Positions 16,283-43,368 of a stretch of 43,368 bases of DNA are shown here, piece by piece. Each line of letters starts with the position of its first letter. The stretch's first letter is position 1. Position numbers and translations under genes: made by a program. The notes under the pieces are model-generated. The model was not told the DNA's origin. It saw only the letters and a list, made by a program, of their open reading frames with translations, and did no database searches. The stretch comes from an uncultured bacterium (GTDB lineage Bacteria; Auribacterota; Erginobacteria; Erginobacterales; Erginobacteraceae), in contig CAKZYZ010000361.1 in assembly GCA_937885075.1 (NCBI GenBank), positions 1-43,368 of the forward strand, in the 5' to 3' direction.

Positions 16283-16310
16283 AAAATAGCTCCCTTCGGT
16301 CGCTATTTTA
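16280..16310 (-). promoter_or_regulatory. hairpin that places the Shine-Dalgarno in its loop
   Basis: On the minus strand TAAAATAGC (16302-16310) pairs perfectly with GCTATTTTA (16282-16290). The loop GACCGAAGGGA holds most of the ribosome-binding site, and the last paired base is the A of the ATG start codon. It could modulate translation of the NDK-like gene, or be a coincidence of a short AT-rich stem. Confidence 0.4.
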
Positions 16311-16412
16311 GTTTCGAACAACGACCATTATTAATCTGTTAAGGCTATAGCATAAAAAGTATTAACAATAACATTTACATCTTTATTCCGAATTGATCAA
16401 CTCTGAATAATC

Positions 16413-26750: not shown

Positions 26751-26840
26751 CAATAACCTCCTTTTTTAAGTTTTCCGATATACCGTATGTTTTAGATCAA
26801 AATATAACTCAGGATTTACAGTAATCATACACTACTTGAG

Positions 26841-28748: not shown

Positions 28749-29435
28749 TTAGTAACCTCCGGAGAAGGATTCTCCGGAGACCAACTCCACCGAGTGGCTG
28801 GTCCCGACCCGGCTGGCGCCGGCCTCCATCAACTGGTGGGCGAACTCCCGGGTTTTTATCCCTCCGCTGGCCTTGATCAGGAGTTCGTCTCCGACAACCT
28901 CCCGGATCAGCCTGATGTCTTCCACAGTCGCTCCTCCATCCACGGTCCCGGTTGAGGTCTTGATGAACCGGGCCCCGGCGGCTTTGGCCAGACAGCATCC
29001 GCAGATCTTCTCGACCTCATTCAGGCTGGCGGTCTCCAGGATCACCTTGACGGGCTTGTCTTCACAGGCCCGGACTACCTGCTGGATATCGTCGAGGACC
29101 ATGATGTAATGCTTACTTTTCAGCGCGCTGATGTTGATCACCATATCGATCTCCTGCGCGCCCCGGTTGACGATGGCGTCATGAGCCTCGAAAGCCTTGG
29201 CTACCGCGGTCATCTGCCCATGGGGGAAGCCGACCACCGCGATCGGGATCACATCGGAACCTTCCAAAAGTTTGGCCGCGTACTCCACATTGCTGGAGTG
29301 AACGCAGACCGAGCGAAAATGATATTCTTTCGCCTCTTCGACCAGTCGGTCGAAGTCTTCCCTGGTTGCTTCGGGATCTAAGAGGGTGTGATCTATGATT
29401 GCTGCTAATTCACGGTCGTAGTCATGTTCCGGCAT
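28749..29435 (-). CDS. deoC: deoxyribose-phosphate aldolase
   Basis: DeoC splits 2-deoxyribose 5-phosphate into glyceraldehyde 3-phosphate and acetaldehyde, the last step of deoxynucleoside breakdown. The 228-residue protein shows HTLLDPEA near the start, the proton-relay region EIDMVIN (Asp97), Schiff-base Lys159 in FIKTSTG and Lys188 in IKASGGI. I chose the ATG at 29435: GGAGAG lies six to seven bases upstream, and the 25 extra residues of the longer frame are encoded by a palindrome. It is the last gene of the nucleobase cluster. Confidence 0.94.
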   Translation of the reverse strand: MPEHDYDRELAAIIDHTLLDPEATREDFDRLVEEAKEYHFRSVCVHSSNVEYAAKLLEGSDVIPIAVVGFPHGQMTAVAKAFEAHDAIVNRGAQEIDMVINISALKSKHYIMVLDDIQQVVRACEDKPVKVILETASLNEVEKICGCCLAKAAGARFIKTSTGTVDGGATVEDIRLIREVVGDELLIKASGGIKTREFAHQLMEAGASRVGTSHSVELVSGESFSGGY

Positions 29436-29461
29436 TTGATTCTCTCCTTTTTTATTAATCG

Positions 29462-29491
29462 GACGGATCGGTCGGATCAGACCGATCCGTC
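29462..29491. repeat. 12-bp inverted repeat in deoC leader
   Basis: GACGGATCGGTC and GACCGATCCGTC flank GGATCA, 27 bases upstream of the deoC start. It could be a regulatory hairpin or operator, or a palindromic repeat. GATCGGTC motifs recur inside it. Confidence 0.65.
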
Positions 29492-29612
29492 TGATTCCCG
29501 CACTCCTCACTAAGGGTCATTTTTATCGTGGATTAGGTTTAAAAAATTATAATACCATGAAAGGAATAAAACATAATAGAGAATCTACAATTAAAAGATG
29601 AGAGAGTGCCAG

Positions 29613-29652
29613 AAAAAAAGGGCGGGCCCGTCCGTTAAACGGACGGGCCCGC
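29613..29652 (-). terminator. strong intrinsic terminator after NCS2 permease
   Basis: Read on the minus strand: a perfect 15-bp GC-rich stem (GCGGGCCCGTCCGTT) with a one-base loop, followed by CTTTTTTT. It lies 36 bases past the permease stop, so the permease transcript ends here and deoC probably has its own promoter. Confidence 0.88.
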
Positions 29653-29687
29653 TCCCGGTTTATAACAGATACCCGAAGAAATTCAGA

Positions 29688-31076
29688 CTATTTCCCGGGG
29701 CTCTTCAACCCGACCACAAAGATCAGGTTCAGAACAATAGCCACCACTACCGTCGATACAATCGGATTCTGTATGAAGAAACTGAAGAATAACGGCAGCG
29801 ATTTCGCTATCTCGGGCGGAAGAAATGAGAAAGAGATTCCGACGATGGTCGCGACGCTGACGATGAGTTTGTTGGTCTCCGTCATCTCCATCGACTTGAT
29901 AATCTGAATCCCTACCATCAGCAGCATACCCAGGATAATAAACATCGCTCCGCCATAGATCGCGTAGGGTATTACCGAAAAGAAGACCCCGACCTTAAAG
30001 ATCAGACCGATCAAGATCATGATAACTCCGCCGAAGATCATCATGCTCTTCGCGCCGACCCGGGTCAGGGAGAGAACTCCCAGGTTCTGGCCGGACGAGG
30101 TGCAGGGGATATTGCCGAAGAAGGAAGTAACCAGGGAGACCCCGGTTTCTACGAAGAGACCACGGTTGGTTCTCTCTGTGGTCAACTTCTGCCCTCCCAA
30201 TCCGGCGGTGCCCTGATAACATCCCACTGTATCCAGGACATTGGTCAGCTCAGCGACGAAAAGAATCAGAATCACCGGAATAAAATTCCAGGAGAGAGCA
30301 ACGGGCCGAGGCTGGCCAAAGACCATATTCCCGGCAAATAACTTTCCGAATGTCTTGGGTGCGACAAACCAGGGAGCGGAAGCTACCTGGGCAAAATCGA
30401 TCTTCCCCATTAACGCGGCGATGATTATCGCGACAAATATCCCCCAGAGAACGCAGGCATACCGCAGGATTCCTTTCGGAACTAAAAAGGAGATTACAAC
30501 CGGAATCAACATCGCGATCAAGGCCAGGACAATATTAGAAGTTGAGACAATAACCCCCCCATTGACATAGTCAGTGGGAAAGATCAGATCGATACTGGCC
30601 ACCTTTATCAGACTGGTGGCAATCACAATAAATAACGGCCCGATCACTACCGGGATGGCAATATAGGGGAGGAGCCGACCCAGTATTCCTTTCTTAAAGG
30701 GGATAACCAGTAGTACGGTAATGGCGCTGACAATAACCAAACCCCACCATACCATGACCGGTCCCACCGCGATGATCGATGGGATCATTACCGCGATAAA
30801 GATGATCGCCTGAGCCTGAGCTACAGGAAGTTTTAAAAATTTACACTGGATCGCCGTCTCCAATCCGGCGCCCACCAGCATGATCATCATCAGATAAGCT
30901 GTGATAGTGACATCCCATTTAAATACACTGGCAAAGATAATCGGAGTGATTATCGGTGTCAGGATCAAGACAAATACATGCTGAAATCCGTAGAGGATAT
31001 TCTCCCCGAATGACAGCTTGGCATCTATCCCGATCGCCAATGCGGCTCCACTATTAATACCTTGCTCTTCAGCCAT
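29688..31076 (-). CDS. NCS2-family purine/pyrimidine permease
   Basis: A 462-residue protein with about 13 hydrophobic segments. The NCS2 signature Q-N-x-G-x4-T-R-V-G is present as QNLGVLSLTRVG. NCS2 carriers take up xanthine, urate or uracil with protons. AAGGAGG lies six bases before the ATG. It is placed right after a PreA-like gene and ahead of a strong terminator. Context favours the substrate of the neighbouring molybdenum hydroxylase and PreA-like enzymes, that is, a purine or related heterocycle. The sequence alone does not separate purine from uracil carriers. Confidence 0.9.
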   Translation of the reverse strand: MAEEQGINSGAALAIGIDAKLSFGENILYGFQHVFVLILTPIITPIIFASVFKWDVTITAYLMMIMLVGAGLETAIQCKFLKLPVAQAQAIIFIAVMIPSIIAVGPVMVWWGLVIVSAITVLLVIPFKKGILGRLLPYIAIPVVIGPLFIVIATSLIKVASIDLIFPTDYVNGGVIVSTSNIVLALIAMLIPVVISFLVPKGILRYACVLWGIFVAIIIAALMGKIDFAQVASAPWFVAPKTFGKLFAGNMVFGQPRPVALSWNFIPVILILFVAELTNVLDTVGCYQGTAGLGGQKLTTERTNRGLFVETGVSLVTSFFGNIPCTSSGQNLGVLSLTRVGAKSMMIFGGVIMILIGLIFKVGVFFSVIPYAIYGGAMFIILGMLLMVGIQIIKSMEMTETNKLIVSVATIVGISFSFLPPEIAKSLPLFFSFFIQNPIVSTVVVAIVLNLIFVVGLKSPGK

Positions 31077-31249
31077 AACAAACCTCCTTACTTGGGTTGA
31101 TCAATTGCCTTCTCAATCTATCTATAATCGTTCCGGATCTTACCCTGATTCGTCTTCCCTTTGGGTAGCCGAAACGAGAACATTATGGTTCCGGGATAAC
31201 CGGAACAGTACAGCCATTTTTTAATTTTCTGCTTCGGAATTTCAATAAG

Positions 31250-31310
31250 CTCGTAGTGCAGGACTTCAGTCCTGCCTTCGTTGGGCAGGACTGAAGTCCT
31301 GCACTACGAG
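31250..31310. repeat. 27-bp perfect inverted repeat
   Basis: Arms 31250-31276 and 31284-31310 are exact complements around TTCGTTG. The core reads GTAGTGCAGGACTTCAGTCC, itself partly palindromic. It lies between the permease and the upstream PreA-like gene. A dispersed palindromic element is likely; it may also form an mRNA stem in the operon. Confidence 0.85.
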
Positions 31311-31331
31311 GTTGCGCCGAAGGCACTATGT

Positions 31332-32510
31332 TCAATTATAATATACCTGAGTGATCGCATCAACCGGGCAGACACTGAGACAGAGCCCGCAGCCGGAACA
31401 TCGGTCAGGATCAATCTTTGCTGCGCCATCTATCCGGATCGCTCCGAACGCGCATACCTGCTCACATCGGCCGCAGGAGGTACACCGCTCTTCATTGATG
31501 GTAGGGATTATCTTTTCGGTTACGGCTACCCGCCCCTTCTCCTCGCGCTCCTCGATCTTCTTAATGGTCAGACCCCTGACCTCTTCCGGACTGGAAACAT
31601 CCAGATCACGGAGAAGCTCCTCCAGATCATTGATTATTTCAGTATAACGATCCGGCCCCTTCAGATGACCGGCCGTGCAGACCCCTACCAGGGTAGCCCC
31701 GGCCATCATGTATTCAATCACATCCGAGGCGGTGGTAACTCCGCCAATCCCGATGATGGGAAGATCTACCGCCAGGGCGATATCGAGCACCATCCGGAGG
31801 GTGATCGGCATGATCGCGGGCCCGGTCAGACCACCGACTCCCCGAGGCCCGCCCAGAATGGGGCGGCCGGTTCTGGTATCAATCTTCAGAGCCGGGCCGA
31901 GGGCGTCGGAACAAGCGATTCCATCGGCTCCCGCCTCTTTTACACCCTCCGCCCACTCCCGGGTGATATGGGAGAAGGTCCCGGAGAGCTTGACCACTAC
32001 CGGGCAGGATACCGCTTCTTTTACCAGCCGAACGGATTCGATCATCGGCGCCAGATCGGTGAGTTTCGGTTCCTGATAGTTCATCCCCGGGAACATGGCA
32101 TTGAGAATCTCCCCCATGTGGGGACAGTGGGTCGGGAGGATGATCATCCGGGCTCCGGCCGCTTCGGCTTGGGCGGCCAGTTCCGCCGCCTGCGCCGGAT
32201 AAAATCCAGCCAGATTCGCGATTACCAAGGCATCCCCCTCCCCTGCCTCCTTGATCCCCTCGGTAAACCAGTACTCCGTGGTCTTATCGGAACCAAAGAC
32301 CGAGTTTATCATTCCCGCCGGAACCGTGGTTAAGCACGGCAGAACATCGCTGACCGGCTGGGCGACGATCGTCTTGGTACAGATCGCCGAGACCCCGGAA
32401 CGGGAGATATCTTTAATCGTCTTCCCGTCTCTCCCATGGATACCGGCGGGGACAATTATGGGGTTTTTAAAGGTCAGACCGCAAAATGACGTGGTGAGAT
32501 CGATACTCAT
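31332..32510 (-). CDS. dihydropyrimidine-dehydrogenase-like (PreA-like) iron-sulfur flavoprotein A
   Basis: Residues 1-300 form a dihydroorotate-dehydrogenase-type FMN barrel (NPIIVPAGIHG, GGVTTASDVIEYMMAGA). Residues 340-385 hold two 4Fe-4S clusters (Cys343/346/349/353 and Cys371/374/377/381). The loop LPTHCPHMGE puts Cys129 where dihydropyrimidine dehydrogenase has its catalytic Cys in LNLSCPH, but the substrate-binding Asn is replaced by Pro. The Asn-Thr pair of the later loop is replaced by Ser-Asp (ACSDALGP). The substrate may therefore differ from uracil. The second of two ATGs (32510) is chosen, five bases after GGAGG. It is a paralogue of 34190-35359. Confidence 0.85.
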   Translation of the reverse strand: MSIDLTTSFCGLTFKNPIIVPAGIHGRDGKTIKDISRSGVSAICTKTIVAQPVSDVLPCLTTVPAGMINSVFGSDKTTEYWFTEGIKEAGEGDALVIANLAGFYPAQAAELAAQAEAAGARMIILPTHCPHMGEILNAMFPGMNYQEPKLTDLAPMIESVRLVKEAVSCPVVVKLSGTFSHITREWAEGVKEAGADGIACSDALGPALKIDTRTGRPILGGPRGVGGLTGPAIMPITLRMVLDIALAVDLPIIGIGGVTTASDVIEYMMAGATLVGVCTAGHLKGPDRYTEIINDLEELLRDLDVSSPEEVRGLTIKKIEEREEKGRVAVTEKIIPTINEERCTSCGRCEQVCAFGAIRIDGAAKIDPDRCSGCGLCLSVCPVDAITQVYYN

Positions 32511-32658
32511 CATAGCCTCCGTAAAAATAGTTAGTTCTATCTTTTACTGTGCGGGTAAATAATCTTGATTCTTCCTTTGTTCTATGCACAAATAGCAATA
32601 AATCCCAAATTCCAAGCACCAAATATCAATTATCCCCCACCTCAGCCCCAATTAAAGG

Positions 32659-32747
32659 CGAATATCGGATGTCGAACACCGAACTCCGAATGTCGAAGTT
32701 GCTTCGCATTGGCTTCTTTTACTTCGACATTCGATATTCGATATTCT
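32659..32747. repeat. GAATATCGGATGTCGAA-type inverted repeats
   Basis: Short words such as CGAATATCG, ATGTCGAACACCGAA and CGAATGTCGAAG recur. They are mirrored on the other arm by CTTCGACATTCGATATTCGA, forming an imperfect palindrome around GCTTCGCATTGGC. It is preceded by a CCCCCACCTCAGCCCC leader like those near other repeats. Confidence 0.65.
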
Positions 32748-32776
32748 GCGGTTCGTTATTCGCTTCTTAATAATAC

Positions 32777-34162
32777 CTATACCTCAATCCCATTCTTCCT
32801 CCAGAGAATCCGAGCCTCTTCCAGGCAGGCTGCCGCCACTTCCTCTTCATTCACCGTGGTCATCTTTCCCTCATCAAGAACAAGCTGACCGTCAATTATC
32901 ACACTCTCCACATCCCGACCGAGAAAGGTCATGGTGAAATACGAGATCACCGATGAAGGGGTAACCGGGGACGGGGAATCCGGTTGGACAATTAAGATAT
33001 CGGCCTTCTTGCCCACCGCCAGACTCCCGATCCGGTCTCCCCATCCCATCGCCCGGGCGGCATTGCCGAGGACAAAGTCCAGGACCTGGAAGGGCGGTAT
33101 CAGCATCGGGTTGGCGTTGTGGGCTTTGTGAATAAGATAGGCGTACCGGATATATTCGGAGGTATCGAGAGTGAAGAAGCAGTCATGGCCGATTGTCATG
33201 TTGATCCCCTGCTCCAGCATCTCCGGGACGGGGGCGACGCCATTGCCTCCCAGCGAGTTGGTCATCGGGGTATGGGAGACGTTCACTCTGTTGCGCTGCA
33301 GGATCTCGATATCTTCGGCGGACAGATCGATACAGTGGGCGGCCACCACGTCGGGACCGAGTAATCCGGCATCTTCCAGGACCTGAGGGGCGGATCTCCC
33401 GAACTTCTCGACCAGGAAGGCGCGGGGGATCTCCGCCACATGGATCTGGATCCCGCAGCCGTATCGGTCGGCGATCTCCCGGGCCTTTTTAAGGGTCTCC
33501 GGTGAGTTGGTATAGGCGGTATGGACCCCCAGCCTCCCCTGGATCCGGTTATCTTGCCCGGCCGGGTAGCGGGCCAGAAAATCCAAGTTCTCTTTAAAGC
33601 CCTTCTCCGCCATCCCCGGATCAAGTTTCTCCCGGATCGAGACCCCCGGGATCCGTTCGGTTACCTCAAACCCGACCTGGGCCCGGATGCCGACCTCCTC
33701 GATCGCCCGCCCCCCGGCCGCCAGCGCTCCGGGAAGAGCATTGGGTCCTTCGATCAGATCACAGACCGTGGTAGTCCCGTTCTTAATCATCTTCATAGCC
33801 GCATAACGGGTGGCGGCATATATACCCTCTTCGGTCTGAAGATCTTCCAGCCATTCCCATCCCATCTTCTGGAGCATATCCCAGAAGCTTTTAAGCTGGG
33901 TGAAATCAACCGGCTGATTGTGTCCCAGCAGATAGGCCATATGGGTGTGAGTAATAATAAATCCGGGCATCACAATCTTGCCACTCGCGTCGATGACCCG
34001 GTCCGCTTCCCCGTATTCCGCTTCGATTTGGGCGGTATTTCCGATGGCTGCGATCTCGTTTCCGATGACCGCCACCGCCCCATCCTCGATGATCTCACCG
34101 GTCATGGCGTCTTTTTCAAATGTCACGACCAGGCCGTTTTTAATCAATATATCAGCCTTCAT
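32777..34162 (-). CDS. amidohydrolase, SsnA/TrzA-type deaminase
   Basis: A 461-residue metal-dependent hydrolase. The metal ligands are HTH (His72, His74), HVAE, HCIDL and HDC (Asp in IGHDCFF), as in the SsnA, guanine deaminase and chlorohydrolase group. E. coli SsnA is encoded beside the selenium-linked xdh/yge genes, and the gene here sits between two PreA-like paralogues in a molybdenum hydroxylase cluster. Deamination or ring opening of an aromatic N-heterocycle is the best guess. AAGGAGACCGGAG precedes the ATG; 27 bases separate it from the upstream gene. The name SsnA is by context and general similarity. Confidence 0.85.
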   Translation of the reverse strand: MKADILIKNGLVVTFEKDAMTGEIIEDGAVAVIGNEIAAIGNTAQIEAEYGEADRVIDASGKIVMPGFIITHTHMAYLLGHNQPVDFTQLKSFWDMLQKMGWEWLEDLQTEEGIYAATRYAAMKMIKNGTTTVCDLIEGPNALPGALAAGGRAIEEVGIRAQVGFEVTERIPGVSIREKLDPGMAEKGFKENLDFLARYPAGQDNRIQGRLGVHTAYTNSPETLKKAREIADRYGCGIQIHVAEIPRAFLVEKFGRSAPQVLEDAGLLGPDVVAAHCIDLSAEDIEILQRNRVNVSHTPMTNSLGGNGVAPVPEMLEQGINMTIGHDCFFTLDTSEYIRYAYLIHKAHNANPMLIPPFQVLDFVLGNAARAMGWGDRIGSLAVGKKADILIVQPDSPSPVTPSSVISYFTMTFLGRDVESVIIDGQLVLDEGKMTTVNEEEVAAACLEEARILWRKNGIEV

Positions 34163-34189
34163 CTCCGGTCTCCTTATTTATCGGTTATT

Positions 34190-35359
34190 TTAGACAAAGT
34201 ACCCGGATTTAATTGCATTCACCGGGCAGACCTCAACACAGAGGCCGCAGCCGTAGCATTTTTTCTCATCGATCCGGGCAATATCGTCTACGATAATGGC
34301 TTCATAGATGCAGGACGCAGCGCACTTGCCGCAGGCCGTGCATTTTTCTTCATCGATTTTGGGCATGACCGGTTTGGTAATCGCCTGGAGGCCCTTCTCC
34401 TTCCGCTCCCTTACCCGCTGCAAGGCCAGGCCCCGGATCTCTTCCAGGGTTACCCCCTCCTCTTCGAAATAGCGCTCTAGATCGCGAATCAGCCTGGTGT
34501 ACACTTCCATCCCCTGGAGATGCCCGGCCGTACAGACCCCGACCATGCCGGCCCCGGCCATGATGTACTCTACCGCATCCCGCCAGGTGGAGATTCCGCC
34601 CGAGGCGATGATGGGGATGTCAAGATTCCAGGCGATCTCAAAGACCATCCGGAGCGCAATCGGCTTTAACGCTCCCCCCGAGAGGTTGCCGAATCCGCGC
34701 GGACCGCCCAGCTTGGGCTGCCCGGTCTCGATGTCGATGCTCAAAACCGGTCCGAAGGTATCGGTGACTTCTATCACATCCAGCCCGGCCTCCATTCCAG
34801 CCTTGACCCAGTCAACCGCGTTCTGACTGAAGACCGCCGAGAGTTTTCCGATCAGGGGAACATCAACCGCTTCCCGGACCGCTTTAACGGTATCATAAAA
34901 TGGCTGGGGATCATAAATCTCCGGAGGAGGAAGTTTCAGGTCCGGGAACTGGGCCTCGAGATTCTCGGCCAGAATGGAGCAGTGCGTGGGCAACTCCACG
35001 ATATCGGCCCCGGCCGCGACCGCTTTTGCCGCCAGTTCAGCCGTCTCTGCCGGATGGGTGCCGGCCAGGTTAACAATAAGGGGAACCCCGGCGGTTTTAG
35101 CTTCGGGGATCTCCTTTGTAAACCACTGATCGGCCGGTTCAACCGCCGCCAGTACACAGTTGAGAAAACCGCCCGGGACCAGGGCATAGCAGGGCAGCGG
35201 ATCCGGGACCGGGAAGGGGACGATACTCTTGGTGGTGACAGCCCCCACCCCGGTTTTAGCTACTTCCTTAATGGTATCGGCATTCCGGCCGTGCTCGCCC
35301 GAGGTAACGATGACCGGGTTTTTTAGCTCAACGTCTCCAATCTTTACTGAAAGATCCAT
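34190..35359 (-). CDS. dihydropyrimidine-dehydrogenase-like (PreA-like) iron-sulfur flavoprotein B
   Basis: The 389-residue paralogue of the gene at 31332, with the same layout: FMN barrel (NPVIVTSGEHG, GGISTWRDAVEYIMAGA) and two C-terminal clusters (CTACGKCAASC, CYGCGLCVEVC). Cys127 in ELPTHCSILAEN aligns with the catalytic Cys, but the following Pro-His of paralogue A is also lost. The later loop reads EVTDTFGP instead of the NT pair. AGGAGG lies six bases before the ATG. It overlaps the 3' end of the Mo-subunit gene by 32 bases, so translation is probably coupled and the flavoprotein may pass electrons to or from the hydroxylase. Its substrate is unknown. Confidence 0.85.
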   Translation of the reverse strand: MDLSVKIGDVELKNPVIVTSGEHGRNADTIKEVAKTGVGAVTTKSIVPFPVPDPLPCYALVPGGFLNCVLAAVEPADQWFTKEIPEAKTAGVPLIVNLAGTHPAETAELAAKAVAAGADIVELPTHCSILAENLEAQFPDLKLPPPEIYDPQPFYDTVKAVREAVDVPLIGKLSAVFSQNAVDWVKAGMEAGLDVIEVTDTFGPVLSIDIETGQPKLGGPRGFGNLSGGALKPIALRMVFEIAWNLDIPIIASGGISTWRDAVEYIMAGAGMVGVCTAGHLQGMEVYTRLIRDLERYFEEEGVTLEEIRGLALQRVRERKEKGLQAITKPVMPKIDEEKCTACGKCAASCIYEAIIVDDIARIDEKKCYGCGLCVEVCPVNAIKSGYFV

Positions 35360-37646
35360 GGCTATCCTCCTGTTGTTTTTGCAGGGCTTTTACGATATCC
35401 TGCCGGGTAATGGGCAGGCGGGTAAAACGTATTCCGGTGGCATCGGCTACGGCATTGGCAAAGGCGGCCGCCGCGCCGGCGACCGGCGGTTCACCGATCC
35501 CCTTGACCCCGTAGGGGCCGGTCGGATTATAGTCTTCCACCGAGATGGTCTCGGTGGGGATACGATCCTTGATGGTGGGGACGGCATAATCGGCAAAGTT
35601 GGCATTCTGAATATGACCGTCCTTCATCTGTATCTTCTCCAGGTGAGCCAGTCCGAAACCGGTTAAAGATGCTCCCATAACCTGCCCTTCCACCCCCAGG
35701 GGGTTCACCACTTTACCCAGATCATGGGCCGCGACATGGCGGAGCACTTCGACCCGGCCGGTATACCGGTCGATCCGGATCTTCATCAGGTGGCAACCAT
35801 AATTATAGGCGATATAGATATTTCCCTGGGTGGTCTCCTCATCATAATCGGCGACCGGGGCTTTAGAGAAGACCAGGTCCATCAGGGGAAACCCGGTCCA
35901 GTAGGCCGCGGTAGCCACTGAAGCCAGAGGGATCCGGGCGGAATCGTCGACGGCAAGAATGGCAAAATTTTCTTTCAGGATTACCATCTCTTCCTCAGCC
36001 TTAAACATCAGCGCGGCCATTGAGACCAGTGACTTCTTCACATTCTGAGCCGCCTTCCAGACCGCCATCCCGCCGACCGTGGTGCTCCGGGAGGCGACGG
36101 TCGGGCCGGAGTCATGGACCGAGTCGGTGTCAACCGGACGGACGGTTACTTGATCTATAGTTACTCCCATCACCTCGGCGGCAATCTGAGCGAAGACTGT
36201 CCGTGACCCCTGGCCCAGTTCGGTCAGTCCGACGCCAACCAGGATACTACCGTCCTGCATAGCCTGGACCGAACCGCCCACCACGTCAATCCCTTCCGCG
36301 CCGTTAGAGATGCCCTGGATAACTCCGGAATAGCCGGTTCCGTAAAGCCAACGGTCCGGATCCGGTTCGGGCGCGTCCGCCATTTCTTTCCGGCAGTCGT
36401 CGACCCGGTCAATACAGGCCTGCATCCCAACCGACTCTTCGAATATCTGACCGGTTCCGGTAGAGTCACCAGGCTTCAGTCCGTTCTTCCTCCGCAATTC
36501 CAGAGGATCCATATTAAGCGCCAGAGCCAGTTCTTCTATCTGGCACTCCGATCCATATATCCCCTGAGGGACACCAAACCCCCGGAAAGCGCCGGAATAG
36601 GTTTTATTGGTATAGACCGCTGTGGATGATCCCCGAACATTCGGAACACTATACGGTCCGGTGGCATGAATCAGAGCCTTCATCACCACAAAGGGACTCT
36701 CCGAGGCGTAGGCGCCTCCATCGAGAATAATCTTGAACTCCCGGGCTGTGATAGTTCCGTCCTTCTTCGCCCCGGTCCGGTAATAAATCCGGGAAGGATG
36801 ACGGAGATTGGAACCGATGATAGATTCTTCCCGGTCGTGCGCGATCCGGACCGGACGGCCGGTACGGAGAGCGGCCACAGCGGCCAGGGCGCCGATCTCA
36901 CTGGCTACGTCATCTTTGCCTCCGAAGGATCCTCCGGTAAAAGCCTGAACCACTTTGACCCGGGAGGCCGGGAGGTTGAGATTGGCGGCAATATGACCGC
37001 GGAGATGATAGGGGGATTGACAGGAAGCGTAGACCGTCACCCGTCCATTACTTTCGGGAACGGCACAGACCGACTCCGGCTCCATATAGGCGTGTTCCTG
37101 GTGCGAGGTCCGATAGGTATTCTCCACTATCACATCAGCTTCCCGGAAGCCCTTATCGATATCACCCTTGATCAGATTCTTGGAGACGACAATATTACCA
37201 CCGGGATGGATCTTCCGGGACCCTTCCGCCATGGCCTCATCAATATCCAGGATCGGTTCAATCTCTTCCAGATCGATTTTGATCGCCCGGGCTCCCGCCC
37301 GGGCCGCGTCCCTCGATTCCGCCACTACCAGACAGATCGATTCCCCCTCGTAGCGGATATCCTCGGTGGCCAGGAGCGGCTGATCGTAAGGGGGCAGAAT
37401 CCCCATGATATTCGGGCCGGGGATATCTTCTCCCCGGAGAATATCGACCACACCGGGCACTTTCAGAGCCAGAGCTACATCCACCGATTTAATATATCCG
37501 GCCGGGATACCGGCGCGGCGAGCGTAGCCGTGAAGTAAACCCGGGAACTGGAGATCTCCGGCGAACTTAGCTTTTCCGGTGACCAGTTCAACCCCGTCTA
37601 CCTTCCTGACCGGCTTTCCGACTATGGTTAGTTGGTCTGCTGTCAT
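35328..37646 (-). CDS. molybdenum hydroxylase, large Mo-cofactor subunit (XdhA-like)
   Basis: A 772-residue aldehyde oxidase/xanthine dehydrogenase family subunit. The molybdopterin domain shows GGSFGGKDDVASE, SGAFRGFGVPQG, VGLTELGQGSRT and the catalytic Glu719 in GVKGIGEPP. These enzymes add oxygen from water to carbon in N-heterocycles or aldehydes. Together with the FAD and 2Fe-2S genes upstream it forms a three-part enzyme. Neighbours (carbamoyltransferase, SsnA-type deaminase, permease) favour a purine-like substrate and possibly a selenium-dependent form, which sequence cannot show. The start is chosen by family fit; its Shine-Dalgarno is weak, and repeats fill the 460 bases upstream. 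Confidence 0.92.
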   Translation of the reverse strand: MTADQLTIVGKPVRKVDGVELVTGKAKFAGDLQFPGLLHGYARRAGIPAGYIKSVDVALALKVPGVVDILRGEDIPGPNIMGILPPYDQPLLATEDIRYEGESICLVVAESRDAARAGARAIKIDLEEIEPILDIDEAMAEGSRKIHPGGNIVVSKNLIKGDIDKGFREADVIVENTYRTSHQEHAYMEPESVCAVPESNGRVTVYASCQSPYHLRGHIAANLNLPASRVKVVQAFTGGSFGGKDDVASEIGALAAVAALRTGRPVRIAHDREESIIGSNLRHPSRIYYRTGAKKDGTITAREFKIILDGGAYASESPFVVMKALIHATGPYSVPNVRGSSTAVYTNKTYSGAFRGFGVPQGIYGSECQIEELALALNMDPLELRRKNGLKPGDSTGTGQIFEESVGMQACIDRVDDCRKEMADAPEPDPDRWLYGTGYSGVIQGISNGAEGIDVVGGSVQAMQDGSILVGVGLTELGQGSRTVFAQIAAEVMGVTIDQVTVRPVDTDSVHDSGPTVASRSTTVGGMAVWKAAQNVKKSLVSMAALMFKAEEEMVILKENFAILAVDDSARIPLASVATAAYWTGFPLMDLVFSKAPVADYDEETTQGNIYIAYNYGCHLMKIRIDRYTGRVEVLRHVAAHDLGKVVNPLGVEGQVMGASLTGFGLAHLEKIQMKDGHIQNANFADYAVPTIKDRIPTETISVEDYNPTGPYGVKGIGEPPVAGAAAAFANAVADATGIRFTRLPITRQDIVKALQKQQEDSHGSFSKDWRR

Positions 37647-37677
37647 ATTCTATCTGGAACTTCTTCCCCCAACCTCC

Positions 37678-37790
37678 CCCCCCCTTTTTTTGTCCACGGA
37701 TTTCACGGATTAACACCGATTGATCCCCCTACCTCGGCCCCTTACGCAGTCCACTAATTACACGAATTTGCACTAATTGTCCCCCCCTAC
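37678..37790. repeat. dispersed repeat family C, diverged copy 3
   Basis: Shares GTCCACGGATTTCAC, CCGATTGAT, GTCCACTAATTACAC and CACTAATTGT with the copies at 13735 and 38627, but the middle differs. Confidence 0.7.
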
Positions 37791-37879
37791 CTCCCTCCCT
37801 TTAAATGAACTACGAATTTCGCGAATTACACGAATTAAAACAGAGACAACTAAGAAAAATATGATTGGTTTTCTCCGTC

Positions 37880-37909
37880 AACCAACCTTCGCCAAGGCTA
37901 CGGCAGGCA
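37880..37909 (-). repeat. dispersed 30-bp repeat family D, copy 2
   Basis: Reverse complement of 13911-13940 with three differences; the core on the minus strand reads GCCGTAGCCTTGGCGAAGG. Confidence 0.75.
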
Positions 37910-37963
37910 AGGCCGTCAACTGCCAACCGTCAACTTTCTTCCCCCCCTACCTCGGCCCCATAA

Positions 37964-38072
37964 TTAATTTCCAATGGCCAACTTCCAATATCCAATTTCC
38001 AAATTCAACCTCGACGTTGTCATTCGCATTTGGAGATTGGCTATTGGTCATTGGATATTGGACATTTCTGTC
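37964..38072. repeat. CCAATTTCC-type imperfect palindrome
   Basis: Left arm words TTCCAATGGCCAAC and CCAATATCCAATTTCC are mirrored on the right by GGAGATTGGCTATTGG and CATTGGATATTGG. This is a non-coding palindromic element. Confidence 0.7.
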
Positions 38073-38106
38073 CTGAATCCTGCATCCTGAGTTACACGTT
38101 CGATCT

Positions 38107-38586
38107 TTATCTTTTCCTCTCCCCCCGCAACACCTTCGCAGCTTGCAGAACAGCTCTTATTATCATCCCGTAACCGGTGCAGCGGCAGATATTTCCGGCC
38201 AGGGCCTCTTCAATCTCATTCTCAGTCGGGTCGGGATTGCTCTCCAGCAGGGCCCGGGCACTCATAATCATTCCCGGGGTGCAGTATCCGCACTGAACCG
38301 CACCCTGGTCAAGAAATGACTCCTGGATGGGGTGGAGGCCGCCGGATCCATCGGAGACTCCTTCGATGGTCATCACCTCACACCCCTGCAATTTAGCCGC
38401 CGGGAGGAGGCAGGCGTTGACCGGTCTGCCATCGAGCAGGATGGTGCAGGCCCCGCATTCCCCCCGGCCGCAGCCTTCCTTGGTCCCGGTCATTCCGAGC
38501 TGATCCCTGATCAGATCCAGGGCTCTGGTCTGGGGCGGTGCCTCTATACTGACATCCTTGCCGTTACAGTTAAATTCAATCAGCAT
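38107..38586 (-). CDS. molybdenum hydroxylase, 2Fe-2S subunit
   Basis: The 159-residue electron-transfer subunit of the xanthine dehydrogenase type. The N-terminal plant-type ferredoxin domain has Cys39, Cys44, Cys47 and Cys59 (GCGRGECGACT, NAC). The helical C-terminal domain has Cys99, Cys102, Cys134 and Cys136 (QCGYCTPGM, NICRCTGY). All eight ligands are intact. It passes electrons from the Mo site to FAD. GGAGAAGAAGGA directly precedes the ATG. A family C repeat separates it from the FAD gene upstream. Confidence 0.95.
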   Translation of the reverse strand: MLIEFNCNGKDVSIEAPPQTRALDLIRDQLGMTGTKEGCGRGECGACTILLDGRPVNACLLPAAKLQGCEVMTIEGVSDGSGGLHPIQESFLDQGAVQCGYCTPGMIMSARALLESNPDPTENEIEEALAGNICRCTGYGMIIRAVLQAAKVLRGERKR

Positions 38587-38626
38587 TCCTTCTTCTCCAC
38601 CAATTTTGCCTTGATTGATATGTGTT

Positions 38627-38740
38627 TCCCCCTACCTCTCCCCCTTTTTTGTCCACGGATTTCACAGATTACTCTGATTATTTCGCCTCGGATCGGCGGC
38701 TTTGCTGTCCACTAATTACACTGATTCACACTAATTGTTT
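38627..38740. repeat. dispersed repeat family C, copy 2
   Basis: Nearly identical to 13735-13850. Its right end contains the last codons and stop (Asn-Asn-stop) of the FAD subunit gene, so the repeat has replaced or extended that gene's 3' end. Confidence 0.85.
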
Positions 38741-39585
38741 CCCTCGGCCTCGGCCCATGCTTCTGCCAGAGCATCGGTGAGAAGCGTACCAATCACCGAT
38801 CGGCGGTAGTCGGCGGTAGCCCGTACGTCGGAGATGGGGCTGATCTCAATGCTGGCTAACCGGGCGGCGTCCGCGATTATCCCCGGAGTCATCCCGGACC
38901 CTTTGAGGGTCGCCGCGGCTTTGAGCAATGGGATGGGAACGGGCCCCACGGAGCCGGCGGCGGCGCGGATCTCTCCGACCTTCCGCCCGGCCTTCACCTT
39001 CACCCAAACCGCCACGTTAACCTGGGAGATAATCTGTCCGTTGCGCTGGCCGATCTTCTTAAATGATGATCCTCCGGAGAGATTTTTCCGGGGGATCTTT
39101 ATACCGGCCAGAAGTTCATCCTGATTCAGGACGGTTTTTTTGGGCCCGGTAAAAAATTCTGCCACCGCTACTTCCCGCCGACCGGCCGGTGAGATCAGAA
39201 CCAGTTCCCCTTCCAGCACAATCAATGGGGTGATGGTATCCCCACAGGGAGAAGCATTACAGATATTCCCCCCCACCGTAGCCAGATTTCGAATCTGGAG
39301 AGAGCCCACCGAAGCCGCCCCCTGAACCAGGACCGAAGGCAGCCGGGGATCGGAGGCCAGTTCCGCTAACGGCGTGGCCGCGCCAATTTCCAGACCCTCC
39401 TCCGTCTCCCTTATTCCCCGCAACTCCGGTATCCGGGAGATATCAATCAAGGGATCGGGTGAAAGCATGTCCGCGGCCATCAGGACCATCAAATCCGTCC
39501 CACCGCCGATAAACCGGCCCTCCGGAGCAGCGACTCTAGCCTGTAGAGCCTCTTCGATTGTGGAAGGAAATATATAGTCTGTCAT
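38731..39585 (-). CDS. molybdenum hydroxylase, FAD subunit
   Basis: The FAD-binding subunit of a xanthine dehydrogenase/CO dehydrogenase-type enzyme, 284 residues from the chosen ATG. FAD contacts are seen in FIGGGTDL (25-32) and LATVGGNICNASPCGDT, followed by the CO dehydrogenase flavoprotein C-terminal domain. I chose MTDYIFPSTIEEAL (start 39585), since family members begin close to this strand and AGGA lies nine bases upstream; an ATG at 39621 would add 12 unlike residues. The FAD, 2Fe-2S, Mo gene order gives one enzyme. The stop lies inside a family C repeat. Confidence 0.92.
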   Translation of the reverse strand: MTDYIFPSTIEEALQARVAAPEGRFIGGGTDLMVLMAADMLSPDPLIDISRIPELRGIRETEEGLEIGAATPLAELASDPRLPSVLVQGAASVGSLQIRNLATVGGNICNASPCGDTITPLIVLEGELVLISPAGRREVAVAEFFTGPKKTVLNQDELLAGIKIPRKNLSGGSSFKKIGQRNGQIISQVNVAVWVKVKAGRKVGEIRAAAGSVGPVPIPLLKAAATLKGSGMTPGIIADAARLASIEISPISDVRATADYRRSVIGTLLTDALAEAWAEAEGNN

Positions 39586-39719
39586 TATGCTCGATCCTGA
39601 AGTGTTTCGAGTAAGTTCCATTTTTTAAATTTGTAAACTTTAGCTCCCCTCTCTCCGCCGGCAAGCTTCAGTAAAACATATCCCCTCATAGCGTACTCAC
39701 CACAGCGGGCCCACACGAT

Positions 39720-39737
39720 GGCGACCTGAAGGTCGCC
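39720..39737. repeat. GGCGACC hairpin of the GTAGCGGC type
   Basis: GGCGACC, loop TGAA, GGTCGCC, followed by GCTACGAG. Related GCGGCTAC ends occur at 4490-4497 and 28675-28682. Confidence 0.65.
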
Positions 39738-39855
39738 GCTACGAGCACAAAGCTACTAACTCTCCGGCAGCTATGAATAGTTCTTTAACTTTTGGCACTT
39801 AAGGCACTTCCAACTTTTCTCATCCGCCATAGCTTTAGCGACGGAGGAAGGCACT

Positions 39856-39888
39856 TAAGAAAATGGCCCGCAGCGAAGTGCGGGCCAT
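39856..39888 (-). terminator. intrinsic terminator after carbamoyltransferase gene
   Basis: On the minus strand a perfect 10-bp stem ATGGCCCGCA with loop CTTCGC is followed by TTTTCTT. It begins about five bases after the stop codon, so the carbamoyltransferase transcript probably ends before the hydroxylase genes. Confidence 0.85.
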
Positions 39889-39892
39889 CTTC

Positions 39893-40894
39893 TTACCGGT
39901 ACCCTCCCATCAGAAGGGCCAGCATTGCCTTTTCCGTGTGGAGACGGTTCTCCGCTTCATCGAAGATAATCGAGGCCGGAGAGTTGAGAACTTCATCGGT
40001 CACCTCGGTATTCCGGGAGATCGGCATACAGTGCATCACCAGAGCATCTTTTTTCGCCATATCCACTACCTTCTGGTCGACACACCATTCATCCTTCAAT
40101 TTAGCCTTCATTTTCTGGAACTCGGGATCCCCGGCAAAGTGGGTCTCCAGTCCTTTGGCGAACTCTTCCGGAGAGACCCAGGAATAGACATTGATGAAAT
40201 CGGCATCCTTGACCGCCTCTTCATAGGACCGGACGATATTAATGCTTCCGCCCGACAGCTCCGCCGCCTCATCGGCCATAGCCTTGAAATTAAGATCCGG
40301 GTCAAAGCCCTCCGGGCAGGCTATGGAGAGATCAAAACCAAGTTTCCCCGCCATCAGCATGGTCGAGTTGGGCAACCCCGCCGGGGGGTTGGCGGTCCGG
40401 TATCCCCAGCAGATAGCCACCTTGAGATTCTGGATCGATCCTTTCTTCTCTATCATGGTCATCGCGTCGGCAAATGCCTGACAGGGATGCTCGACCGGAC
40501 AAGAGGCATTGATGAGCGGAATTGTGGTATATTCAGCCGCCGAATCCACCCGTTCCCGACGGAGAGCGCGATAGGCGATTCCATCCAGGTAACAGGATAA
40601 GGTCTTGATGGTATCATGCCAATCTTCCTCCGCGGCCTCACCTACCCAGAGGCGGTTCTGGTCCAGCCAGAGCATATGCCCCCCTAACTGGGTCATCGCC
40701 GTCTCAAAAGATATACTGGTCCGGGTGGAAGGGGTCTCAAAGACACCCCCCAGACTCTTTCCCTCCAGAAGACGATGAGGACGCCCCATTTTGAGTTCCA
40801 GTTTGAGCTCCCGGGCGACCTCCAGAATCAACTTAATCTCATCCGAATTAAGATCGGTTATCCCGGTAATATTCCTTCCTTTCAGTTCCGACAT
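39893..40894 (-). CDS. carbamoyltransferase of the OTC/ATC family (YgeW/AOTC-like)
   Basis: A 333-residue transcarbamylase. Carbamoyl-phosphate binding residues are clear: STRTS at 56-60 and HPCQ at 136-139, with the C-terminal EAENRLHTEKA. The amino-acceptor loops are not those of ornithine transcarbamylase: HCMPISRNTEV (289-299) replaces HCLPAxRG-E, and VYSWVSPEE replaces the usual D-x-SMG loop. YgeW and N-acetylornithine transcarbamylases also have tryptophan-containing loops there. In this cluster it may run in the catabolic direction, giving carbamoyl phosphate from a carbamoylated product such as oxamate or a ureido acid. AAGGAGGA lies six bases upstream. Substrate unproven. Confidence 0.87.
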   Translation of the reverse strand: MSELKGRNITGITDLNSDEIKLILEVARELKLELKMGRPHRLLEGKSLGGVFETPSTRTSISFETAMTQLGGHMLWLDQNRLWVGEAAEEDWHDTIKTLSCYLDGIAYRALRRERVDSAAEYTTIPLINASCPVEHPCQAFADAMTMIEKKGSIQNLKVAICWGYRTANPPAGLPNSTMLMAGKLGFDLSIACPEGFDPDLNFKAMADEAAELSGGSINIVRSYEEAVKDADFINVYSWVSPEEFAKGLETHFAGDPEFQKMKAKLKDEWCVDQKVVDMAKKDALVMHCMPISRNTEVTDEVLNSPASIIFDEAENRLHTEKAMLALLMGGYR

Positions 40895-40920
40895 TTTGCT
40901 TCCTCCTTACGAATAAATTC

Positions 40921-41017
40921 ACCACGAAGATCACGAAGGACACGAAGAACAGTTGAGAAACAAATAAAATTCAGCTCAAGTTTTAGAAATCTTCGTGATC
41001 TTCGTGTCCTTCGTGGT
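40921..41017. repeat. CACGAAG nonamer inverted repeat
   Basis: The left arm has three nonamer-like units, ACCACGAAG, ATCACGAAG and GACACGAAG. The right arm, read on the minus strand, has the same units with the last two exchanged (ACCACGAAG, GACACGAAG, ATCACGAAG). About 42 bases separate the arms. The element lies between the oxidoreductase and carbamoyltransferase genes. Confidence 0.85.
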
Positions 41018-41067
41018 TTCAATTTGTTTTATGTGCCAATTGATATCGGGAATGGTGGAATTAGATA

Positions 41068-42198
41068 TTATACTTCCCCTTCCGCCAGGTAGCGTTTCAG
41101 TTCCTCCACGGTCCAGTTGGGGTCGAAGCCCATGGTCTCTACCGTCCTTCCGATACTCCGGAAATCACGGTTCAGCAACCCCTCGGCCAGGGTGGTAATC
41201 GCGTCGGAGATCGGGGTCGGGACACCTAACATCTTCCCGAGTGAAGAAAATGTCACCAGGCCGTAAGGGATATCTTCGGTAAAGTGGCGGACATCCAGAG
41301 AGAAGGGACCTTCGCAGACTTCCAGAAAGGGGGTATGTATCGCCTCGTAGATCGGCAGGACATAATCCGCTCCGTCCCGGTTCCACTTCACCATCAGTAT
41401 CTCTTCTTCCAGAGTGTATTGCTTCATCCCCAGTTTCTCTCCGATCGCCATCCGCTCCCGGTCGAGCAGTTCGATCAGATGCACCACCGCCGGGGTATTC
41501 TCCTTCGGACCGAAGAGTTTAAAATCATCTTCTCCCAGTTCGATCCGGGCCGCGTTGCAGATCATGGGCGGGGTGTGAGTGATCGCGTTATAATCAACCA
41601 GGATTGAATCGATCGCGTTCTGACCTTTCCGGAGGGTATACCCGTGTTCCGGAGGGAAGACCTGCCCGGCCACTTCGATTACATAATCAATATCCTTTCC
41701 GGGGAAGGTAGCGATTATCAGGTTCTGGGTCCGATTCTCCAGGCGGACCTGGTAATCCCCGAATTTAGAGGCCCCGTAAGGGAGAGTATTACAATCAGCC
41801 AGGTAAATCTTCTTATCGATCCCCATCTCCTTTAACACCTTGCCCCAGGTGAGGGACGCTCCGCCTTTACCCAGATAGATCACCACCTGACCTTCTTCCA
41901 GGTGGGGAGCGATCAAGCGGGCGTACTCTTCACAGACAAAGTAAGGGACCGGGTTGAGAATAACCTGGGCGCCTTTTATCGCTTCCGCGATATCGCTGGT
42001 GGCACAGTCGACGCCGAAGAAACCGGTGGGATTAGAGTCTATATCCAGAACCTCAATCCCACCTTTCTCCCTGATCCCGACCACTTTTTCTTCGCTCCGG
42101 GAAAAGAGAGCGACTTCAAAGCCCAACTTAGCCATATCGGCCGCCGCCATCCTTCCTCCGCTACCGGCGCCTACTACCGCTACTTTCTTAATATTCAT
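41068..42198 (-). CDS. NAD(P)-dependent opine/octopine dehydrogenase family protein
   Basis: A 376-residue two-domain oxidoreductase. The Rossmann domain begins VAVVGAGSGGRMAAADMA (GAGSGG at 10-15) with FSR at the strand-2 end, a basic residue compatible with NADP. The C-terminal helical domain is the octopine dehydrogenase type, with the catalytic-type histidine in NAITHTPPMI. Known members reductively join or split an amino acid and a keto acid. Its role in the catabolic cluster is unclear; oxidation of an N-substituted amino acid product is possible. AAGGAGAAGAAGAG precedes the ATG. Confidence 0.87.
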   Translation of the reverse strand: MNIKKVAVVGAGSGGRMAAADMAKLGFEVALFSRSEEKVVGIREKGGIEVLDIDSNPTGFFGVDCATSDIAEAIKGAQVILNPVPYFVCEEYARLIAPHLEEGQVVIYLGKGGASLTWGKVLKEMGIDKKIYLADCNTLPYGASKFGDYQVRLENRTQNLIIATFPGKDIDYVIEVAGQVFPPEHGYTLRKGQNAIDSILVDYNAITHTPPMICNAARIELGEDDFKLFGPKENTPAVVHLIELLDRERMAIGEKLGMKQYTLEEEILMVKWNRDGADYVLPIYEAIHTPFLEVCEGPFSLDVRHFTEDIPYGLVTFSSLGKMLGVPTPISDAITTLAEGLLNRDFRSIGRTVETMGFDPNWTVEELKRYLAEGEV

Positions 42199-42386
42199 CT
42201 CTTCTTCTCCTTAATATTACTTATATTAGAACTTCGCCTCGCAACTTTTTGCCACTAAGACACCAGGACACAAAGAAAATACTTAAGATACGATAAATAT
42301 ATTTTTCTCTGATTTTATGATTGTTTCTTAGTGTCTTTGTGGAATATATATATTTTTAAGAATGAATTAACTTTAAAATATCCCTA

Positions 42387-42416
42387 TAATGTTGGTTCAA
42401 GGCTTGCCCACTCTTA
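42387..42416. repeat. dispersed 30-bp repeat family E, copy 2
   Basis: Matches 19297-19326 at 26 of 30 positions. It includes the TAA stop of the hydantoinase B gene. Just upstream (42248-42350) are CCACTAAGACACC and AGTGTCTTTGTGG words forming an imperfect inverted repeat. Confidence 0.65.
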
Positions 42417-43171
42417 TTTTTTCGAAGAAAAAATAAGATTACGCAGATCTTTGGTTGCTTCCGGATTGACTATCAGTTCCTCCCCTTCCAGGATCACGCC
42501 GTAGTCATCGCGGGCGCTGGCAAGAGAGATAATCTCGTTGCGGGCATCCTCCCTGACCAGCTCGGGGTCACGACTGAGGGGATTACCCCATCCCCCGCCC
42601 CCGGATGGGTAGGTGGAATAGGTGTCGCCCTTCTTCAGCGGAACCGCTTCCTTCGCCCTTAATTCCTTTTCCTCCGGGGTGCCTTCATTGATATAGGCGA
42701 TGTTCCGGCTGCCGGGTTGTCCATCATAGAGACCATAGGGAGGGATCTTCTTCCCATCGCCGAACATGACCAGGGTCGGGTTATCGTCATATAACCTGAT
42801 CTTATATTTCGCTCCGCAGCCGCCCCGGAACTCACCGGCGCCGCCGGAGTCGGTGGTAAACTCATTGAACTCGGTGATATGAGGATAATCGGCCTCATTG
42901 GTCTCGATATTGGGGGCGATCAACCCCCCCAGGTCGATCCCATCGCCGATATAATGACGGCCATCCAGACCCTGTATCCCTCCCGCGCCGCCGAATCCGT
43001 TGAAACCGAACATGACATAAAAATTGTCATTCCGCGGATCGACACCGGTAATGGTGGGTCCGTTCCATCGGTTCCAGCCGGCCGGGACCCGGTCGGGGAG
43101 GACCAGGGAGAGGGCCTTCCAGCAGGCCTCCAGGATAGCGCAGGCCGTATCCAGAGTGCAGGAGGCAACCG
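42414..43171 (-). CDS. hydantoinase B/oxoprolinase subunit, C-terminal part
   Basis: About 252 residues of the HyuB family (hydantoinase B, 5-oxoprolinase B, acetone carboxylase-like). It includes GWNRWNGPTITG, FGFNGFGGAGG, HITEFNEFTTDSGGAGEFRGG and the late PSGGGGWGNPLSRDP. The family performs ATP-dependent opening of hydantoins or 5-oxoproline together with an A subunit, not seen here. Only the C-terminal half or less is present: the 5' part is replaced by sequencing adapter from 43172 onward, so the missing codons are an assembly loss, not biology. It would be the first visible gene of the catabolic cluster. Confidence 0.9.
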
Positions 43172-43249
43172 AGATCGGAAGAGCACACGTCTGAACTCCA
43201 GTCACACTGATATATCTCGTATGCCGTCTTCTGCTTGAAAAAAAAAAAA
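43172..43249 (+). other. Illumina TruSeq-type adapter, index and poly-A (artefact)
   Basis: AGATCGGAAGAGCACACGTC begins at 43172. The adapter continues to 43205, followed by an eight-base index ACTGATAT (43206-43213), the P7 flow-cell part ATCTCGTATGCC...GCTTG (43214-43237) and 12 A's (43238-43249). This is read-through library adapter, not genomic DNA. On the minus strand it yields the artefact peptide SSRRRHTRYISVTGVQ. Confidence 0.98.
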
Positions 43250-43368
43250 GGCCATTAGCTGTACCATACCCAGGCACACAACAATACTGATAGCAGATAT
43301 CACCCAACGCCAGCAAGCTACTTTCTCTCCCATCCTCCTCCACCCATCCTCTCCCATCTATCTATCTC
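43250..43368. other. untrustworthy tail beyond the adapter
   Basis: Low-complexity C/T-rich sequence ending TCTATCTATCTC follows the adapter. It has no coding or repeat link to the rest of the window and is probably chimeric or error sequence. Confidence 0.85.

Follow-up and report, generated by a model that had tools for sequence, protein, structure and literature searches.

Reductive anaerobic breakdown of purines was first resolved biochemically in 2025, with uric acid as the sole substrate, through a pathway composed of XdhD, YgfK or UacX, SsnA, HyuA, YgeW or UacY, YgeY, and YgeX (PMC12507026). The E. coli set comprises XdhD-YgfM, YgfK, SsnA, HyuA, YgeW, YqeA, YgeY, and YgeX, and the C. 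difficile variant employs UacY together with UacX, a dihydroorotate dehydrogenase-type (DHO_dh) protein without an FAD domain (PMC12507026). Here we describe a gene cluster at positions 28749-43171 of a 43,368-nucleotide contig (C361; the whole of this stretch is hereafter the window) from an uncultured bacterium of the Erginobacteraceae, whose genome bin comprises 4.4 Mb in 434 contigs and is 87% complete. The cluster appears to encode a relative of the uric acid pathway that has not been described so far and may handle N-methylated rings. A preliminary description of this DNA had proposed catabolism of a purine or related N-heterocycle with carbamoyl phosphate as the likely energy product, and our analysis supports this. 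Judged from the predicted chemistry of its enzymes, the cluster probably carries out anaerobic, reductive breakdown of a purine-type ring in parallel to, and distinct from, the E. coli and C. difficile systems.

Profile searches of the window proteins confirmed eleven genes on the minus strand, as the preliminary description had listed. From 43171 down to 28749 these encode a C-terminal fragment of HyuB (hydantoinase/oxoprolinase B; 42414-43171; 137 bits to the CapB model over 245 aa); a 376-aa opine-dehydrogenase-family enzyme (ODH; 41068-42198; PF02317, Octopine_DH, E 2.6e-30); a carbamoyltransferase of the ornithine-carbamoyltransferase fold with a WVSP acceptor loop (39893-40894; TIGR00658, 265 bits against a cut-off of 281); the XdhB-like FAD subunit (38731-39621; PF00941, PF03450), XdhC-like 2Fe-2S subunit (38107-38586; PF01799, E 1.8e-34), and 772-aa XdhA-like Mo subunit (35328-37646; PF02738, PF20256) of a molybdenum hydroxylase; PreA-like 1 (PreA1; 34190-35359); an SsnA-like amidohydrolase of the cog0402 type (32777-34162); PreA-like 2 (PreA2; 31332-32513); an NCS2 xanthine/uracil-type permease (29688-31076; PF00860, E 2.1e-49, under the TIGR03173 cut-off); and DeoC, a deoxyribose-phosphate aldolase of nucleoside sugar use (28749-29510; TIGR00126, 247 bits against a cut-off of 117). 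The SsnA-like gene is flanked by the genes for the two PreA-like flavoproteins, each a DHO_dh protein with two 4Fe-4S motifs (PF01180 plus Fer4). The end of the contig is artefactual: an Illumina P7 indexed adapter occupies positions 43172-43237 and ~130 bases of unexplained sequence follow to 43368, so that genuine HyuB sequence stops at 43171 and any open reading frame extending into 43172-43368 is false. Contig C12, from the same bin, begins (L066:56-3966) with genes in matching orientation for HyuA, the N-terminal portion of HyuB, and a GntR regulator; the HyuB part is 87% and HyuA 75% identical to those of the Spirochaete L038. HyuB is thus split between C12 and C361, and the full unit across both contigs reads GntR-HyuA-HyuB-ODH-carbamoyltransferase-XdhB-XdhC-XdhA-PreA1-SsnA-like-PreA2-NCS2-DeoC. 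The preliminary description had suggested that HyuA and carbamate kinase were not visible perhaps because the contig is cut; both are present elsewhere in the bin, HyuA on C12 and a carbamate kinase scoring over its curated cut-off on C70, adjoining another carbamoyltransferase.

The cluster and the uric acid pathway have in common a molybdenum hydroxylase, a DHO_dh plus ferredoxin-type reductase, an SsnA-superfamily amidohydrolase, a hydantoin-opening enzyme, a carbamoyltransferase, and a purine permease. The assignment to this type of pathway is further supported by the contiguity of the Xdh, PreA-like, and SsnA-like genes, which matches the Xdh-UacX-SsnA triad (PMC12507026). The PreA-like proteins, PreA1 among them, share the domain architecture of UacX. 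With the UacX-type reductase of C. difficile as a described counterpart, the presence of a PreA-like protein next to SsnA and Xdh is no novelty (PMC12507026). The second PreA-like copy and the HyuAB-ODH part are new relative to the uric acid pathway, and our literature searches returned no match for the gene combination as a whole.

Profile scores and trees led us to reject SsnA, YgeW, and E. coli PreA as orthologues of the window proteins, and for the first two of these the preliminary description needs correction. The SsnA-like protein scored 250 bits against the TIGR03314 cut-off of 455.5 and belongs to a clade of 31 rows; a branch with 100/100 support sets this clade apart from 12 rows of true SsnA, and within it the window protein places among Spirochaetota. 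The carbamoyltransferase scored 97 bits to YgeW against a cut-off of 453. It keeps the carbamoyl-phosphate motifs STRT and HP(C/T)Q, the Cys of HPCQ being replaced by Thr in Clostridia, and in all orthologues WVSP stands in place of the SMG ornithine loop of ArgF, a loop that is retained by the separate ArgF encoded on C191 of the same genome; its structural model matches the fold of 1a1s (TM 0.83). The two PreA-like proteins scored 168 and 171 bits to PRK08318, for which the cut-off is 335, and fall in a clade apart from E. coli PreA. The reductive pyrimidine pathway (PreAT/PydA and dihydropyrimidinase) likewise contains DHO_dh plus 4Fe-4S PreA-like proteins, but the PreA-like clade of the cluster is distant from E. 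coli PreA and has PTHC or PTAC as its active-site motif in place of N(F/V)SC, and the cluster includes no PreT partner. Both keep, in a PTHC setting, the cysteine aligned to the active-site cysteine of dihydroorotate and dihydropyrimidine dehydrogenases. In the tree, PreA1 clades only with the second copy of L038 (100/100) and PreA2 with the common copy, of which the Spirochaetota and Bipolaricaulota loci carry versions 60-72% identical to PreA2; a relative of PreA1 with 61% identity adjoins HyuA in a Caldisericota genome. Judged from these sequences, PreA1 and PreA2 are ancient paralogues and no recent duplication. The XdhA-like subunit keeps the YMEPE, AFRGFG, and GEPP motifs and has nicotinate dehydrogenase (3hrd) as its best sequence match in the PDB; its AFRGFG differs from the AYQGYG of E. 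coli XdhD, and C. difficile XdhD is itself divergent. In place of the dihydropyrimidinase-type HyuA of the uric acid pathway the cluster has HyuAB of the oxoprolinase-family, ATP-dependent kind (nearest PDB entries 6yra and 7hk5); among solved structures, HyuA is closest in sequence to those of oxoprolinase and N-methylhydantoinase. ODH is present and YgeX is not in the cluster; no YgeX was found in the window or among those contigs of the genome that were examined, the lone match, on C70, being threonine-synthase-like.

These replacements could also be read as divergence within the ordinary uric acid (yanthine) pathway, in which the UacX-like and SsnA-like proteins would make ureidomethylhydantoin, HyuAB would stand in for HyuA, the carbamoyltransferase for YgeW, and ODH for YgeX, and a YgeY-family M20 hydrolase (24447-25655, minus strand) would remove the second ureido group. 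The functional slots and the kind of neighbourhood are the same, the YgeY-family protein scores over its cut-off (PRK13004, 430 bits against 321) and is encoded on the same strand, and many replacements among variants of the pathway have been reported (PMC12507026). However, a true SsnA is encoded on C196 of the same genome (514 bits, over the TIGR03314 cut-off), alongside several further SsnA-like paralogues elsewhere, and uric acid is thus plausibly handled by genes outside the cluster; the 100/100 branch below the SsnA-like clade also argues against this explanation. In addition, diaminopropionate has primary amines, and we know of no opine dehydrogenase that cleaves these. Overall we consider a uric acid variant rather unlikely. 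The YgeY-family gene, 3.1 kb beyond DeoC with a glycosyltransferase-like gene and a transposase in between, possibly encodes a ureido hydrolase of the same pathway as the cluster, to judge by its sequence; an M20 hydrolase gene adjoins that of the carbamoyltransferase in L038.

The preliminary description had named conservation of the gene order as a check, and a scan covering one genome per species revealed that the core order is kept across several phyla. The SsnA-like protein occurs in 30 loci (62-77% identity) from Spirochaetota, Bipolaricaulota, Caldisericota, Coprothermobacterota, Clostridia, and a few others, some of them metagenome-assembled genomes (MAGs) whose names may be wrong, such as L043, labelled Rhodobacteraceae, and L051, labelled Atribacteria, which groups with Bipolaricaulota. 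The XdhB-C-A-SsnA-PreA core is in the same order in most loci of sufficient length, with the Xdh, SsnA-like, and PreA-like genes contiguous in nearly all complete relatives. The shared core extends from a syntenic HyuA-HyuB-ODH-carbamoyltransferase block to the molybdenum hydroxylase-SsnA-like-PreA-like genes, and the adjoining transporters are either a purine-type permease or a BMP-type ABC transporter. Because this core recurs in order in several phyla, the arrangement is far beyond chance. A chance neighbourhood or an assembly or binning artefact might be suspected from a MAG contig that ends in adapter and from the loose spacing of its genes; this is refuted by the synteny, and the continuation of HyuB on C12 of the same bin and the mfd gene of the contig, which matches same-family genomes at 63-72%, also speak against it; we regard it as highly implausible. 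As mfd groups with the host family, contamination or chimerism was rejected for the contig and accepted just for its last ~200 bases. The cluster itself was probably acquired by transfer, since the SsnA-like protein places among Spirochaetota, mfd with the host family, and no same-family genome has this ODH.

ODH relatives (53-78% identity, with 24 of 25 at 62% or above) were found in 25 of the 30 genomes with a member of the SsnA-like clade, besides a partial match at a contig end in G161. Among 97 comparison genomes, selected around the host and irrespective of whether each has a member of this clade, none had a full-length match over 34% identity, and a few short motif matches were higher (25/30 versus 0/97; Fisher p 7e-22, a value without correction for shared ancestry). 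ODH and the SsnA-like gene lie on one contig in 18 genomes, and in 17 of these the two share a strand, with ODH 2.3-14.5 kb upstream. By both sequence and fold, the best PDB match of ODH is 1bg6, Arthrobacter CENDH, at ~30% identity. The two share the fold, the Octopine_DH domain, and the catalytic His/Asp, as H208 and D309 of ODH align with H202 and D297 of CENDH and are invariant in 13 orthologues; they differ in their low identity and in the ring-catabolism setting of ODH. The structural model is of moderate confidence (mean pLDDT 76), and the models of ODH and the carbamoyltransferase confirm the folds, with pockets too uncertain for reading substrates. Opine dehydrogenases act on the C-N bond of a secondary amine, that is, of an N-alkyl amino acid, and CENDH both makes and cleaves such compounds. 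By analogy, ODH may catalyze the NAD(P)-linked cleavage of a secondary amine, and its position in a ring-catabolism cluster makes the oxidative direction likely.

Taken together, these assignments suggest the following route. The molybdenum hydroxylase would adjust the ring oxygens, the ferredoxin-dependent PreA-like flavoproteins would dearomatise the ring, and the SsnA-like amidohydrolase would open the six-membered ring to leave a hydantoin, which HyuAB would convert to a ureido acid at the expense of ATP. The carbamoyltransferase would then take off the carbamoyl group as carbamoyl phosphate, from which the carbamate kinase on C70 could make ATP, and ODH, working oxidatively, would split the remaining N-alkyl amino acid into a 2-oxo acid, an amine, and NADH. 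As we map the published intermediates of the uric acid pathway, N7 of the purine ends up as the alpha nitrogen of the acid formed by ring opening (PMC12507026). With a methyl group on N7, the SsnA-type step would therefore yield an N-methylhydantoin; HyuAB would open this to an N-methyl ureido acid, which the carbamoyltransferase would turn into an N-methyl amino acid, a secondary amine from which ODH could release a 2-oxo acid, methylamine, and NADH.

In relatives, the carbamoyltransferase and molybdenum hydroxylase genes are separated by exchangeable modules. The Spirochaetota module (L185, L186, L187, L190, and L191) encodes a GrdF-like selenoprotein (TSTUGTC), a GrdG-like protein, GrdA (CxxUTSAG), thioredoxin, and a fused GrdCD, to which thioredoxin reductase is added in some loci; the GrdF-like and GrdA proteins score far under known sarcosine/glycine cut-offs, and the sequences suggest that they are possibly a selenoreductase of new specificity. 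Selenium genes within the cluster were seen in some Spirochaetota relatives only, and the selenium link drawn in the preliminary description has no visible counterpart in the window. The Bipolaricaulota module consists of a corrinoid protein, MtmB, MttB, and an OCD/SbnB-type enzyme. We know of no heterocycle substrate described for non-pyrrolysine MtmB or MttB methyltransferases. The MtmB-family and corrinoid genes of the Bipolaricaulota clusters are without an in-frame stop, as in the non-pyrrolysine MtmB/MttB proteins, the first described of which on the MtmB side (MtqB) acts on tetramethylammonium and choline (PMC13044021). The third module, in Clostridia and one Caldisericota genome, comprises a 2-oxoacid:ferredoxin oxidoreductase (IorAB) and an ADP-forming CoA ligase. 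A tungsten-dependent AFOR and its ferredoxin adjoin XdhB in many loci. As a clue to the product, two of the modules handle N-methyl compounds and the third a 2-oxo acid: methylamine would fit MtmB and the corrinoid protein, an N-methyl amino acid a sarcosine-type reductase, and a 2-oxo acid IorAB with the CoA ligase.

An N7-methyl group would thus account for all three modules of the relatives. Because ODH calls for a secondary amine, and because relatives carry corrinoid methyltransferase and sarcosine-reductase-like modules, we put forward an N-methylated purine, for example a 7-methylpurine, as the leading, though tentative, candidate substrate. With slightly more reserve still, we propose that anaerobes might ferment N-methylated purines by turning carbamoyl phosphate into ATP and by running an opine dehydrogenase backward to free methylamine, with methylamine or the N-methyl amino acid feeding corrinoid methyltransferases or sarcosine-type selenoreductases. 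Our literature searches on anaerobic breakdown of methylpurines returned nothing relevant.

Several observations weigh against this interpretation. The secondary-amine substrate has the enzyme family of ODH as its single source and is drawn by analogy. The window copy of the cluster is without an AFOR, reductase, or methyltransferase module, MttB had no match in the window's own genome, and neither did GrdB, in a search run without a positive control. The GrdF-like and GrdG-like proteins score best to sarcosine reductase models (379 and 263 bits), far under the cut-offs, and the Clostridia relatives carry a different Xdh (35-37% identity). Finally, the spacing of the cluster genes in the window is loose (gaps of 144-460 bp), the tight exception being XdhA/PreA1/SsnA, with a 32-bp overlap followed by a 27-bp gap.

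The same Grd scores, and the proximity of HyuA to N-methylhydantoinase and oxoprolinase, would also suit creatinine or N-methylhydantoin as substrate, with the SsnA-like protein deaminating creatinine, HyuAB opening N-methylhydantoin, the carbamoyltransferase phosphorolysing N-carbamoylsarcosine, and sarcosine passing to ODH (yielding glyoxylate and methylamine) or to a sarcosine reductase. A precedent exists in Clostridium sp. FS41, which converts N-methylhydantoin to sarcosine via N-carbamoylsarcosine and has sarcosine reductase (PMC4417704). A hydantoinase-type opening and an N-carbamoyl amino acid would be common to both systems, as are the sarcosine-reductase-like enzymes and fused GrdCD of the Spirochaetota relatives. 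FS41 differs in hydrolysing N-carbamoylsarcosine and in its ATP-independent hydantoinase, whereas the window cluster has a carbamoyltransferase, ODH, Xdh, and PreA-like and SsnA-like proteins (PMC4417704). As this scheme leaves no role for the molybdenum hydroxylase and PreA-like reductase, the tightest-linked partners of the SsnA-like gene, we consider it unlikely.

A secondary amine would be explained without any methyl group if the substrate were a pterin or another pyrazine-fused uracil of the lumazine or flavin type, where opening of the pyrimidine would leave an amino acid with its alpha nitrogen in the pyrazine, a built-in opine for ODH. The cog0402 amidohydrolases include pterin deaminases, and molybdenum hydroxylases act on pterins. 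Against this, the transporters adjoining the clusters are of the nucleobase/nucleoside type, and the methyltransferase and sarcosine-reductase-like modules would be left without a reason; such a substrate appears improbable to us, less probable than creatinine. Anaerobic riboflavin degradation was also considered and set aside, as none of the genes that we looked for occur in the text of its description (PMC12934955).

That a sister cluster is conserved in several phyla, among uncultured lineages from sediment, subsurface, and gut, suggests that the substrates of reductive ring catabolism extend beyond uric acid. If methylated bases are the substrate, as our preferred N-methylpurine scheme holds, the cluster would offer a fate, in anoxic settings, for the methylpurines that RNA and DNA release, and would put an opine dehydrogenase to catabolic use. 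The proposal is directly testable, since the gene set is small and many candidate substrates can be purchased. As a whole, the earlier interpretation was right in kind and is partly supported, with homologies that need correction.

Elsewhere in the host genome, seven MtmB-family proteins without in-frame stops are encoded at sites on C427 (L088:9904-14252), C194 (L092:1707-5670), C354 (L102:1165-16000), C328 (L104:233-7288), C272 (L198:3037-7862), and C257 (L199:4116-6729). Several of these genes adjoin those for a corrinoid protein, SsnA-like deaminases, Xdh subunits, dihydropyrimidinase, or a BMP-type ABC transporter, and their products may be N-demethylases of methylated heterocycles. The whole 4.4-Mb bin has 16 molybdenum-hydroxylase matches and at least ten SsnA-superfamily proteins, many of them encoded in separate clusters with PreA/YgfK-like, AFOR, or BMP transporter genes. 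From the number of these genes and their frequent clustering, the host looks like an N-heterocycle specialist.

Within the window, it is uncertain whether DeoC belongs to the cluster, and none was seen at the corresponding place in the relatives' loci. The cluster is broken by low-information intergenic stretches at 37647-38106 and 42199-42413, which contain short repeated phrases such as GGCCGAGGTAGGGGG, present twice. The transposase gene between DeoC and the YgeY-family gene (25755-26753) encodes an IS200/Y1-type transposase domain fused to a DnaA C-terminal helix-turn-helix. At 15107-16321, a 404-aa protein matches the nucleoside diphosphate kinase domain in two separated stretches and is, by this sequence pattern, an inserted or fused form of that enzyme.

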